From Patescibacteria group bacterium (GTDB lineage Bacteria > Patescibacteriota > Minisyncoccia > UBA9983): 16,273 bases of DNA. The notes below the pieces were generated by a model, which did not search any database, was not told the origin of the DNA, and saw only the letters and a program-made list of their open reading frames with translations. This document shows positions 1,264-5,593 of this stretch, in pieces. The translations under genes were made by a program, and so were the position numbers. The DNA lies in assembly GCA_018827845.1 (NCBI GenBank), contig JAHJXC010000049.1, positions 1 to 16,273 of the forward strand. Direction: 5' to 3'. Positions within the stretch are counted from its first letter, which is position 1. Every line of letters starts with the position of its first letter.

Positions 1264-3939
1264 ATGAAAACCAAGCAAATTCCGTGGCATGCTTTGGGCC
1301 TGAACGAAACAAAAGAACGGCTTTTGGCTGATTTTAACAGGGGATTGGATGAAAAAGAAGTTCTAAAACGGCAGAAGCATTACGGCAAAAACGCTTTTGA
1401 AAGCAAAAAGCAGTTTTATTATCTGACTTTATTATGGAAGCAGATAAAAAATCCGCTTGTTTTTATATTGATTATTGCCGCTCTTATCACATTTTTTCTC
1501 AAGGAATATACCAACACTATTGTAATTTTTATTGCTGTTTTTATTAATACTGCAATCGGCATGATCCAGGAGGGCAAGGCCTCGCAGGCCTTTGACAAGC
1601 TTAAGTCCTCACAAAAAAAATTTGCCACTGTCCTGCGCGAAGGCAGGCAAAAAGTTATTGAAGCGATTGAACTGGTGCCGGGCGACATCATTATTCTTCA
1701 AATGGGAGACAGGATTCCTGCTGACAGCCGGCTCATAGAAGGCAAAGGGCTTGAAGCAAATGAATCCATTTTAACAGGAGAATGGCTGAGCATTAAAAAA
1801 GACCCGAAAGCAAAAATCAAAGAAGAAGCGCACATTAGCGATAAAAACAACATGGTTTGGATGGGCAGTTTGATTACCGAAGGATGGGGCAAGGCAGTGG
1901 CGGTCAATACTGGCTCTAAGACAGAAATGGGGGAAATTGCCGAAGTGCTGAAAGAAGGGGATGATGTAATTACTCCTCTTCAAAAAGGCATCAAACATTT
2001 GGCCCGATTCCTGGGGCTTGCCATTGTCCTAATCCTTTCTTTTATTTTTGTGATAGGAATTATCCGGGGAGAACCGCTTATTGACATGCTTTTAATTTCT
2101 GTGGCTCTGGCTGTTTCAGCCATTCCAGAAGGATTGCCAGCCGCAGTTACTGTAGTTTTGGCAATAGGCATGGAAAGAATTCTTTCTAAGGGAGGGTTGG
2201 TGAAGAATCTTAATGCGGCTGAAACTCTGGGCTCGTCAACTCTTATTTTGACGGACAAAACAGGCACTTTAACAAAAGCGGAAATGAATGTTTCAAGAAT
2301 AATGACTTATTTTTCTGAAAACAAAGAATTTGAAAACAGGGAGCACAAAGACAGATTGGAGGTCTTACAAATGGCTTTGCTTGCTTCAAATTCTTTTATA
2401 GAAAATCCTGAAGATGAACTGAAAGAATGGAAAATCAGAGGAGGCCCTATGGATAAGGCGATTTTAATGGCATCAATTGAGGGAGGACTAAGGCCAGTAG
2501 AAATATTCAAAAAAAGTCCGCGCGTTGACTTTATTCCTTTTGATTCTGAAAGAAGATTTTCTGCCTCTTTGTATAAAAATCCCGGAGATGATTGGCGCAT
2601 TTATATGATGGGTGCGCCAGAGCTCATTTTGGGTCTCTGCGACAAGATATATGCCGGGGGAAAAGAATTAAAAATAGGAGAAAAAGAATTCAATCTACTG
2701 AAACGTGTCTATGAAAAAGAAACAAGTAGTGGCGCAAGAATTTTGGGAATTGCCTATAAAAATATAAAAGAAAAATCTTTTCCGCATGACGGAGAAGAGC
2801 AAAAAAAGATTTTTGAAAAAATGGTTTTTGGAGGATTTATCGGGTTCCACGATCCCTTAAGAGAAGATGTTCCAGAATCAATCAAAATGGCCCAGGAAGC
2901 TTTTGTCAGGCCTGTAATGGCAACAGGAGATTACGCTATTACTGCGCAAAAAATAGCGCAGGAGATTGGCTTGATGACAAAAGGCGGCTTGCTTTTAGAA
3001 GGAGAAAAAATAGAAAAAATGAGCGACCAAGAGCTTGAAAATATAGTGGAAAAAGTTGATGTTTTTGCCCGTGTTTTGCCGCATCAAAAAATGAGGATTA
3101 TAAAAGCCTGGCAGTCAAAAGGCGAAGTAGTGGCAATGACAGGAGACGGCGTAAATGACGCGCCAGCTCTTAAGCACGCTGACATAGGCTTGGCATTAGG
3201 ATCGGGCACAGACGTGGCAAAAGAAGCATCGGATATAGTGCTTTTGAATAACAGTTTTAGCATCATTGTTTATGCTATTGAGGAAGGAAGAAGAATTTTG
3301 GATAATTTAAGAAAAATAATCGCTTATCTTTTATCTACTTCTTTTAGTGAAATAGTTTTAATTGGAGTAGCTGTTATTTTAGGATTTCCATTGCCAGTTT
3401 TGCCCGCACAGATTCTTTGGATAAATATTATACAAGAGGGTTTTATGAATTTTGCCTTTGCTTTTGAGCCAAAAGAAAAAGATTTAATGAAAAGAAACCC
3501 AAAGACCAAGTCTCCTAAAAAAATTCTGACTCCAAAATTAAAAAAGATGATTTTTATTGTTACGCTTATTACAAGCGTGCTTCTTACGGCCTTGTACTTT
3601 TTCTTTATTAATTATTTTAGTTATTCCATTGAAAAGATACGAACCATTATGTTTGCGGCTATTTCCGTCAGCAGTATTTTCTTCGCTTTTTCCTTTAAAA
3701 ATCTGAAAAAACCAATTTGGAAAATAAAGATATTTTCTAATCGGTATTTAATTTTTGCTTTTATGACAAGTTTATTGCTTCTTTTAACCTCTTTATTTGT
3801 GCCCATATTGCAAAAACTTCTTTCTTTAGTAACATTATCGTTTTCAGAAATTTTAATACTTTTAGCTTTTGGCTTGCTTAATTTTGCAGTTATTGAAACA
3901 GTTAAATATTTCCTTTTTGAAAAAGAGATAAAATTATGA
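1264..3939 (+). CDS. P2-type cation-transporting ATPase (Ca2+-pump-like)
   Basis: This 891-residue membrane pump would move a cation, probably Ca2+, using ATP. All P-type landmarks are visible: a cation-ATPase N domain (about 5-60), actuator loop TGE at 171-173, M4 motif IPEGLP (287-292, E289), phosphorylation site DKTGTLT (D331), nucleotide-domain MGAPE, and hinge TGDGVNDAP (D628, D632). Ten membrane segments are plausible. The PEGL motif and overall layout match SERCA-like P2 ATPases. Compared with SERCA, E771 is kept as E696 in M5, N796 as N721, but T799-D800 becomes Q724-E725, and N768 aligns with a Ser. The usual TGES serine is W174. Ion choice is therefore inferred, not certain. Its stop overlaps the antiporter start by 4 nt. 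Confidence 0.9.
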   Translation: MKTKQIPWHALGLNETKERLLADFNRGLDEKEVLKRQKHYGKNAFESKKQFYYLTLLWKQIKNPLVFILIIAALITFFLKEYTNTIVIFIAVFINTAIGMIQEGKASQAFDKLKSSQKKFATVLREGRQKVIEAIELVPGDIIILQMGDRIPADSRLIEGKGLEANESILTGEWLSIKKDPKAKIKEEAHISDKNNMVWMGSLITEGWGKAVAVNTGSKTEMGEIAEVLKEGDDVITPLQKGIKHLARFLGLAIVLILSFIFVIGIIRGEPLIDMLLISVALAVSAIPEGLPAAVTVVLAIGMERILSKGGLVKNLNAAETLGSSTLILTDKTGTLTKAEMNVSRIMTYFSENKEFENREHKDRLEVLQMALLASNSFIENPEDELKEWKIRGGPMDKAILMASIEGGLRPVEIFKKSPRVDFIPFDSERRFSASLYKNPGDDWRIYMMGAPELILGLCDKIYAGGKELKIGEKEFNLLKRVYEKETSSGARILGIAYKNIKEKSFPHDGEEQKKIFEKMVFGGFIGFHDPLREDVPESIKMAQEAFVRPVMATGDYAITAQKIAQEIGLMTKGGLLLEGEKIEKMSDQELENIVEKVDVFARVLPHQKMRIIKAWQSKGEVVAMTGDGVNDAPALKHADIGLALGSGTDVAKEASDIVLLNNSFSIIVYAIEEGRRILDNLRKIIAYLLSTSFSEIVLIGVAVILGFPLPVLPAQILWINIIQEGFMNFAFAFEPKEKDLMKRNPKTKSPKKILTPKLKKMIFIVTLITSVLLTALYFFFINYFSYSIEKIRTIMFAAISVSSIFFAFSFKNLKKPIWKIKIFSNRYLIFAFMTSLLLLLTSLFVPILQKLLSLVTLSFSEILILLAFGLLNFAVIETVKYFLFEKEIKL

Positions 3940-4892
3940 TTCTGAACATAATAATATTTATTATATCTTTTTTATTCTTGGTTAAGGCAGGGACGACGCT
4001 TGTAAAGTCTTTGACGCGCCTGGCACGTTTTTTCCAAATCTCCGAATATATTCTTGCTTTCATTCTGATGAGTTTTGCCACTACTATTCCCGAGCTTTTT
4101 GTTGGAATTTCTTCAGCCATAGAAAACATACCAAAACTTTCCCTAGGCAATATTATCGGCGCTAATTTTATAAACATTACGCTGGTCATAGGATTGGTGG
4201 CCTTTTTGAGCAAGGGGATTAAAATCGAGAGTAAGATTTCCCAGAAAAATTTTTGGCTCATTTTCTTTATTGCCTTATTTCCGATATTTCTGGCGACTGA
4301 TGGCGTGATTTCGCGCGGCGACGGCCTTCTGTTAATTCTTGCTTTTGTGCTTTATATAATAAGTTTGATTAGAGAAAAAGAATATTTTACAAAAACAATC
4401 CAGGAAATTGAATTTAACAATCACACGATTTACGGGGTTTTTAAAATGCTGGGAAATTTTTTATTGGGGATTATCATTCTTATTGCCAGTTCAGCAGTCC
4501 TTGTCTGGTCAGGCAAACAGCTAATTTCAGAAATTGGCATAAATGCCTTAACCTTTGGAATAATTTTTGTTGCCCTAGGAACAACATTGCCTGAACTTGC
4601 CTTTGGTATCAGGGCTTCCATGCTCAAGCATTCTTCAATGAGTATAGGCAATGCAATAGGGGCCATAGCTTTTAATTCGGCTTTTATAATTGGTCTGGTT
4701 AGTATGATAAGGCCGATTCATATCAATAACAGTCTGAGTTTTTTTATTGCCGCTGCCTTTCTCATTACCGCCCTGCTTTTATTAAATGTTTTTGTTTATA
4801 CTCGTTCCAGCATCTCCCGCCGCGAAAGCGTCATTCTAATAGGCCTGTATTTTTTATTTCTATTTGTACAATACCTAATTTACACAACTTGA
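3936..4892 (+). CDS. Sodium/calcium-type cation antiporter (CaCA family, YrbG-like)
   Basis: This 318-residue integral membrane protein has the internal duplication of the CaCA exchangers. The alpha-1 repeat carries ATTIPEL (E53) and GNIIGANFIN (71-80). The alpha-2 repeat carries GTTLPEL (215-221, E220) and GNAIGAIAFN (238-247). The two glutamates are the known ion-binding residues of the family. It would export Ca2+ (or another cation) in exchange for Na+ or H+. The ATG lies inside the stop region of the pump gene (ATGA overlap), so translation is coupled, and the pair reads as an active pump plus a gradient-driven exchanger for the same ion. The TGA stop at 4890-4892 lies inside the first palindrome of the neighbouring transposon-like unit, so the extreme C-terminus may have been set by that sequence. 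Confidence 0.9.
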   Translation: MILNIIIFIISFLFLVKAGTTLVKSLTRLARFFQISEYILAFILMSFATTIPELFVGISSAIENIPKLSLGNIIGANFINITLVIGLVAFLSKGIKIESKISQKNFWLIFFIALFPIFLATDGVISRGDGLLLILAFVLYIISLIREKEYFTKTIQEIEFNNHTIYGVFKMLGNFLLGIIILIASSAVLVWSGKQLISEIGINALTFGIIFVALGTTLPELAFGIRASMLKHSSMSIGNAIGAIAFNSAFIIGLVSMIRPIHINNSLSFFIAAAFLITALLLLNVFVYTRSSISRRESVILIGLYFLFLFVQYLIYTT

Positions 4893-4912
4893 CCTAAACA
4901 AGGTTTAGGACA
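4890..4912 (+). repeat. Left REP-like palindrome of the RAYT unit
   Basis: CCTAAAC (4893-4899), loop AAG, GTTTAGG (4903-4909), then ACA, preceded by TTGA. Positions 4893-4912 are the exact reverse complement of 5571-5590 on the far side of the transposase gene, a 20-bp perfect inverted pair. The TGA of its TTGA flank is the stop codon of the antiporter gene. It lies 12 nt before the transposase ATG. Confidence 0.85.
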
Positions 4913-4924
4913 TAAAATATAAAT

Positions 4925-5563
4925 ATGACCGTAAGACCACATAATTTTGTAAAAGGTGAATTTTATCATATATATGCACATGGCATAGAAAATCTTAAAA
5001 TTTTTCAAGAAAAAAAGGATTACGAGCGTTTTTTAACCCTAATGTTTGCGGCAAATGGTGAAAAATCTATTCCACGCATGGATCGTGTTATTGACCTAAA
5101 CCTTGTTTGGGACATAACAAATCGCAAAGCAGACGTAGGAGAACCATTAGTGGATATAGTTTGTTTTTGTCTGATGCCAACGCATTTTCATTTATTATTA
5201 GGAGAACGTGGGGAAGCGAATATCTCAAAATATTTGCATAGAATTTTAGTAAGCCATTCAAAATATTTTAATTTAAAATACGAGAGAAGGGGGCATCTTT
5301 TTGAAAATAAATTTAATTCAAAACATATAGGCGATAATGAATATTTATTGGCTCTTTCGTGCTATATTCACAAAAACAGCAAGGATATTTCGTCTTGGAA
5401 AGATAAAGAAGACCAATATCCATGGTCAAGTTATCAAGATTTTGTTTCGGAAAATAGATGGCAACATCTTTTAAATAAAAATATTGTTGAAGGACAATTT
5501 AATAGTGTTCAAGAATATAAAAAATTCGTTGATGAGCATTATAATGACGAAATTGTACTTTGA
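4925..5563 (+). CDS. REP-associated tyrosine transposase (RAYT, Y1/HUH family)
   Basis: This 212-residue HUH single-strand nuclease of the IS200/RAYT type cuts and joins single-stranded DNA through a tyrosine. The HUH motif is MPTHFHLLL (H87, H89). The segment YLLALSCYIHKN aligns with the motif holding the catalytic Tyr of E. coli TnpA-REP (Y115, in DYIxxNP), making Y147 the likely nucleophile; the usual NP is NS here. FENKF and YPWSSY further match the family. Inverted palindromes lie on both sides, as expected for RAYT genes and their REP substrates. Residues 55-64 are encoded by a third copy of the palindrome inside the gene. No tnpB partner is present. The gene appears intact. No Shine-Dalgarno is obvious, and the TGA stop lies in the right-hand repeat. 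Confidence 0.9.
   Translation: MTVRPHNFVKGEFYHIYAHGIENLKIFQEKKDYERFLTLMFAANGEKSIPRMDRVIDLNLVWDITNRKADVGEPLVDIVCFCLMPTHFHLLLGERGEANISKYLHRILVSHSKYFNLKYERRGHLFENKFNSKHIGDNEYLLALSCYIHKNSKDISSWKDKEDQYPWSSYQDFVSENRWQHLLNKNIVEGQFNSVQEYKKFVDEHYNDEIVL
5091..5114 (+). repeat. Third REP-like palindrome, inside the transposase coding sequence
   Basis: CCTAAAC (5095-5101), loop CTT, GTTTGGG (5105-5111), ACA. It matches the right-hand unit 5574-5593 at 19 of 20 positions (one A to G at 5109, which still allows a G-U pair in RNA). It carries the same TTGA 5' flank as the left unit. It is translated in frame as IDLNLVWDI. Confidence 0.85.
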
Positions 5564-5593
5564 CCTAAACTGTCCTAAACCTTGTTTAGGACA
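5560..5593 (+). repeat. Right REP-like unit: half copy plus full inverted palindrome
   Basis: A half unit, TTGACCTAAAC (5560-5570 region), is followed by a 10-bp perfect stem TGTCCTAAAC (5571-5580), loop CTT, and GTTTAGGACA (5584-5593). The half unit is in the orientation of the left copy and supplies the transposase stop (TGA, 5561-5563). The full unit is inverted relative to the left copy. This resembles the paired, inverted layout of REP/BIME elements. Confidence 0.85.

Follow-up and report, generated by a model that had tools for sequence, protein, structure and literature searches.

A RAYT-type Y1 transposase gene, encoded in the 16,273-nucleotide stretch of Patescibacteria DNA analysed here (the window), carries within its coding sequence a near-identical copy of the palindromes that flank it. 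In many related loci there is likewise an internal palindrome that equals, or differs little from, those in the gene's own flanks, and lineages that differ in their flanking palindromes differ in the internal one too. Its site in the protein is one of two, and the codons track the palindrome beyond what the encoded peptide requires. Comparison of these sequences suggests that it is probably an intragenic cognate REP-type hairpin, updated in step with the flanking REPs by overwriting. The observation touches on how REPs spread and on what keeps a RAYT and its REPs matched as the two evolve; a coding sequence repeatedly rewritten to the enzyme's current target would be a natural record of that co-evolution in a single locus. 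The features of the window discussed below are as follows.

4889..4913, + strand: left palindrome, TTGACCTAAACAAGGTTTAGGACAT, with loop AAG, inverted relative to the internal and right units
4925..5563, + strand: Y1 transposase (RAYT-type) gene, 212 aa
5091..5114, + strand: internal palindrome, TTGACCTAAACCTTGTTTGGGACA, in frame, encoding residues 56-64 (IDLNLVWDI); a short helix spans residues 59-65 in the structure model
5183..5191, + strand: HUH codons, H87-F88-H89, the two histidines being invariant across 75 aligned proteins
5363..5365, + strand: Y147, the likely catalytic tyrosine (role assigned from the Y1 family), invariant in 75 aligned proteins
5560..5570, + strand: extra half unit, TTGACCTAAAC, read from the sequence, abutting the right palindrome on its 5' side
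5571..5593, + strand: right palindrome, TGTCCTAAACCTTGTTTAGGACA, with a perfect 10-bp stem

The internal palindrome of the transposase gene

The internal palindrome lies some 70 bases upstream of the HUH codons. The initial annotation had placed it at 5091..5114, in frame within the transposase gene and translated as IDLNLVWDI, had counted 19 identities with the right unit over 20 positions, and had recognised the TTGA flank that it shares with the left unit; all of these particulars are correct. Aligned in a single register of 23 bases, the internal copy agrees with the right unit at 21 positions and with the reverse complement of the left unit at 20; the second-best place in the coding sequence reaches 14. 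Allowing up to three mismatches, CCTAAACCTTGTTTAGGAC occurs five times in the window, at three places, two of these on both strands, compared with a mean of 0.01 in 200 shuffles. When the peptide IDLNLVWDI was held fixed and its codons were redrawn from the window's codon usage, 24 of 200,000 synonymous recodings matched a flanking unit equally well. These three results bear out the earlier view that identity of this length by chance is very unlikely, and they support its reading of the segment as a copy, at the DNA level, of the gene's own palindrome. The sole difference between the internal and right units within the 17-base core, as read from the sequence, gives TGG where there would otherwise be an in-frame TAG, and puts a G.T pair in the stem. 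Folded as single-stranded DNA, the internal hairpin reaches -3.3 kcal/mol (z -1.9; equalled by 10 of 200 shuffles) and is the weakest of the three, the left and right hairpins reaching -5.3 and -8.2 kcal/mol, respectively. Its complementary strand hardly folds (-1.4 kcal/mol, with 72 of 200 shuffles as good). Twice in the window, the TTGA that opens a palindrome unit contains a stop codon: that of the upstream gene at 3936-4892 (TTGA at 4889-4892) and that of the transposase gene itself (5560-5563).

The protein belongs to the Y1 HUH transposases of the IS200/IS605 superfamily, scoring above the cut-off of PF01797 and retaining the invariant residues H87, H89 and Y147 in the 75 aligned rows. 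It has the RAYT fold and, as expected of a RAYT/TnpA-REP, it is accompanied by flanking palindromes and further genomic copies. Against the NCBIfam REP_Tyr_transpos equivalog it scores 29.5 bits, below the cut-off of 80, so we describe it as RAYT-like and outside that model. By eye, the GT[AG]G tetranucleotide is absent from the feet of the window's hairpins, which read TTGA, TGTCC and GACA; the feet of the other copies in the same genome, also judged by eye, are mostly TTGT or TTGG, and TCAA or ACAA.

Internal palindromes in related loci

We surveyed 118 loci, being 123 (L018 to L140) less five duplicates. Thirteen came from one search, and the rest were among the matches listed for 285 genomes drawn evenly from the class; that list supplied 30 loci and then 80 more, down to 8.9e-34, leaving out weaker rows and a partial match at a contig end (G003:C1:1-360). 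Each gene, less its last 45 bases, was scanned for its best match to the 200 bases on either side, with no palindrome assumed; the score thresholds (14 and 12) and the slot limits were chosen after the data had been seen. In 71 of the 118 loci the coding sequence reached a score of at least 14 against its own flanks; comparisons with foreign flanks reached it in 408 of 13,806 cases. All 71 best matches fell at two places. Slot A, with 64 of them, lies some 15 to 32 residues before HUH and is the place used in the window, and slot B, with the remaining 7, lies about 72 to 78 residues after HUH, behind the likely catalytic tyrosine. A scan for palindromes alone, made without the flanks, gave a best score of at least 10 in 45 loci: slot A holds 35 of these palindromes and slot B 7, the remaining 3 lying elsewhere. 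The palindrome sequences vary widely (CTATAGAGGCTTAGCCTCTATAG in L022 and TGTCAAACACTCGGTGTTTGACA in L055 are examples), and the 71 matched segments are 71 different strings, in part from their differing lengths. Across these 71 palindromes, 574 of 639 inner-stem pairs are Watson-Crick, compared with 27% at random centres, and the palindrome's centre is the middle base of a codon in 66.

The coding sequence follows its own flanks more closely than those of its relatives. Compared with the flank of the nearest relative, the own flank matched better in 83 loci, worse in 22 and equally in 13; among the 71 hits, these counts were 66, 4 and 1. With the peptide held fixed, codons matched the own flanks at p ≤ 0.01 in 67 of the 71 loci and at p ≤ 0.001 in 49, where the foreign-flank control gave 13 and 1 of 118. 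The window's clade comprises 12 loci, whose internal units have a leucine codon at the centre (CTT, CTG or TTA), except in L023, where it is CCG (Pro). Allowing either orientation, this central codon agrees with the loop of the gene's own flanking unit in 8 of the 10 loci in which such a unit was detected; the agreement in L021 and L023 holds only in inverted orientation, L033 and L035 disagree, and the loop scan detected no flanking unit for L019 and L040.

The internal palindrome is thus the product neither of chance nor of protein constraint alone: both chance and a pure protein motif are rejected on the own-flank matches together with the synonymous-codon tests. It is true that the peptide is, by eye and uncounted, widely conserved among the closer homologues, as would be expected if the enzyme needed DLNLVWDI, common descent preserved it and the likeness to a palindrome were accidental. 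However, in other clades both the peptide and the palindrome are unrelated to these, and the palindrome once more matches the gene's own flanks; the codons also match beyond the peptide, unless the synonymous-codon test was biased by unmodelled codon usage, which leaves this explanation scarcely credible. The initial annotation had named a case that would tell against a copy at the DNA level, namely homologues with the same peptide, unrelated codons and no palindromes; among the loci examined, that case was absent.

The internal copy is common, though far from universal. Left and right repeats match each other in 104 of the 115 loci with enough flank, against 9 of 590 foreign controls, in a comparison that scores repeats and is not a palindrome test. 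An internal match of at least 14 occurs in 63 of these 104 loci and also in 5 of the 11 without a left-right match. In the other 41 of the 104, no internal match reached 14; 13 of their best matches nevertheless fall in the slots, some of them of chance quality, and 8 are, by eye, degraded slot A copies in which 15 or more of 18 to 21 bases match. An internal palindrome is lacking in about a third of loci, including two paralogues in the same genome (L089 and L137). The trait is present in an Omnitrophota record (L025) and is therefore not limited to Patescibacteria. In three Clostridia loci (L028-L030) an internal match was not found, and the same test on the E. coli rayT gene gave no internal copy (best own-flank match 9).

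Several loci depart from the common pattern. In L131 and L132 both slots hold one and the same palindrome, in the same frame, so that a near-identical peptide occurs twice (GSSASK and GSLASK). Slot A of L093, L094, L097 and L102 contains a large inverted palindrome, in frame and 34 to 59 bases long, although no flank match in these loci reaches 14; in L093, L097 and L102 it consists of two inverted units. In L033 the reading frame continues through the right palindrome (DPNQVWDI, then stop), the flanking unit thereby encoding a C-terminal tail, and in several further loci the best match lies close to the gene end.

Probable replacement in place and copies elsewhere in the genome

The initial annotation had offered, among other origins, insertion of a REP into the gene, with residues of about 50-75 as the candidate insert. 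Measured from the same start point to just past HUH, the proteins of the window's clade have 67 residues (68 in L038), and those of a palindrome-free sister clade have 68; the other lineages in that alignment, with and without palindromes, have 62 to 72. Residues 50-75 are therefore not extra relative to the sister clade, and we reject a simple insertion because that clade is equally long. The lengths point instead to overwriting, although the sister clade may simply have lost its palindrome. A protein tree was built with slot A masked and labelled 72 A, 7 B and 39 none, where eight of the A labels were assigned by eye and the four loci with large internal palindromes and no flank match were counted as none. 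All 12 members of the window's clade carry the palindrome (two by a lenient reading), and none of the six in the sister clade does, two of these being genes of the same genome. The whole tree requires at least 20 changes of the trait, and each of 500 shuffles required more (mean 32.9).

Palindromes of this type also occur in other genes. In five genomes of one family (L211, L215, L219, L229 and L240), ksgA/rsmA has such a palindrome at one codon site, with four core sequences. The protein is one residue longer there than in 24 of 28 palindrome-free rows, these rows having been judged from the DNA by eye. In ksgA of related genomes, the palindromes thus appear to replace codons, with one added, and such palindromes can in this way alter conserved genes. 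Ten genomes were scanned for palindrome-type sites; nine had them, 66 in all with the transposase loci counted, and one had none, compared with 2 sites for a reversed control pattern. Copy numbers are low.

Besides its left and right units, the window's own genome has six other places with no more than two mismatches, where the reversed control pattern has two. These dispersed copies are evenly divided between internal-like and flank-like. Two of them, C1:13131 and C31:10485, reproduce the internal core exactly, TGG variant included; those on C21 and at C31:9977 have the flank core, that on C67 is nearer the flank core, and C27:3510, with two mismatches, is probably a chance match. The copy on C21 lies in argS; its core is without mismatch and the surrounding region is variable, and we accepted it as a REP. 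The copy in tsaD, on C67, was set aside as of doubtful membership, since the peptide at that place is almost unchanged in relatives and their codons are similar.

Proposed mechanism, alternatives and known systems

We propose that the Y1 enzyme would recognise REP-type hairpins in single-stranded DNA, as is known for RAYTs, and that its cutting and strand transfer, or subsequent repair, may replace one REP, or a stretch of target of similar length, by another REP. Such overwriting would hold all three copies (left, internal and right) to a common sequence, in concerted evolution, and would bring REPs into coding sequence by replacement and not as added length. The slot before HUH would tolerate a REP because its sequence is free and its length fixed. 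Exchange of REPs by overwriting would account for the likeness of the three copies, for their joint change between lineages and for the fixed length. It leaves unexplained the nearly fixed codon phase and the frequent hosting of a copy by the gene itself, for which a role in self-limitation might account.

Under that role, selection would maintain the internal hairpin as a binding site for the enzyme, either in the single-stranded gene or in the mRNA, through which the enzyme would restrain its own expression or activity. The internal copy does track the flanks across diverged loci, its presence is clustered on the tree, and the four loci with a large inverted palindrome in slot A have one even though no flank match reaches the threshold. 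We nonetheless think self-regulation unlikely, given the third of loci that do without an internal copy, the same-genome paralogues L089 and L137 among them. A hairpin selected in mRNA should moreover favour G.T over A.C stem pairs on the coding strand; we counted 20 and 14, respectively, with no clear strand bias. RAYTs are known as enzymes of single-stranded DNA and are not known to bind RNA. Rather less probable still is that the REP in the coding sequence serves as a master from which the flanking and dispersed REPs are copied, keeping the REP family matched to the enzyme. The TGG variant at two of the six dispersed places would fit such a source, as would genome G134, in which the only copies found are the internal pair and one unit, with a mismatch, elsewhere. 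On the other hand, C21, C31:9977 and C67 side with the flank core, C27 is probably chance, and loci without an internal copy still have matching left and right repeats. Lastly, the peptide read from the palindrome could itself be the part of the enzyme that recognises it. Peptide and flanks change together, and the segment forms an ordered short helix in the structure model; however, the palindrome occupies either of two slots, an internal copy is missing from many enzymes whose left and right repeats match, and the sequence alignment to the E. coli enzyme begins only behind the segment, at profile position 67. We regard a self-encoded specificity of this kind as very improbable.

Returning to overwriting, a wider form of it can be put forward tentatively. 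RAYT genes of Patescibacteria, and of some neighbours, may carry a cognate REP in their coding sequence as a regular and continually updated part, and REPs in these bacteria may move by overwriting roughly equal lengths in one fixed codon phase, rewriting the enzyme's own gene, ksgA and argS to the current hairpin. The two slots, the nearly fixed codon phase and the same-length replacement yield specific predictions that can be tested.

REPs inside tnpA-REP genes are already known in kind. In the literature searched, Quentin et al. 2018 (PMC6006769) is the only report found of REPs inside the transposase gene itself, and none was found for Patescibacteria. For subclass 2.4 (RAYT group 4), that report describes REPs in frame within tnpA-REP genes, generally between HuH and Y, with a median HuH-Y distance of 88; it finds the subclass to be abundant in Cyanobacteria and Bacteroidetes, with scattered members in other phyla, and the intragenic REPs are judged to have perhaps little impact on activity. 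Our loci resemble this subclass in having in-frame REPs inside the transposase gene as well as flanking ones. The window's gene lies outside it, with its unit before HuH and 60 residues from H87 to Y147 where the subclass has an enlarged distance. As described in the same report (PMC6006769), the subclass 2.4 insertions vary in length and sequence, and some of their REPs have GT[AG]G feet at both ends; here, by contrast, the main site precedes HuH and the second follows Y, the codon phase hardly varies, and no GTAG foot is present on the window's units. Relative to the literature searched, the position, the nearly fixed codon phase, the measured co-variation and the probable replacement in place are new.

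RAYTs are described as recognising and cutting REP hairpins in single-stranded DNA, and REPs of E. coli as GTAG-tagged (PMC8266576); the E. coli RAYT/TnpA-REP with REP (4ER8) is shorter than the window's protein and has no internal copy by the test used here. REPs within other genes, and the Rickettsia palindromic elements, are covered by Di Nocera et al. 2013 (PMC3733652), and the present palindromes are like these in lying in frame inside ORFs of unrelated genes. The elements described there are, however, inserts, over half of them dimers or groups encoding 20 to 30 residues, whereas here the net gain in ksgA is a single codon, and the transposase gene shows no gain over its sister clade. 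Inverted pairs of palindromes, dispersed in the genomes studied here, resemble REPINs, or inverted REP pairs (the term is from the title of PMC3116915), with the difference that here pairs also occur in frame in slot A of the transposase gene (L093, L097 and L102). Dispersed inverted pairs were found in G128 (C13), G146 (C21) and G198 (C17), and also in G229 and G274, whose unit is itself dispersed, partly as inverted pairs. In one and the same region of a membrane protein, presumably GtrA-like, a single palindrome occurs in one genome and an inverted pair in the other (L212 and L216).
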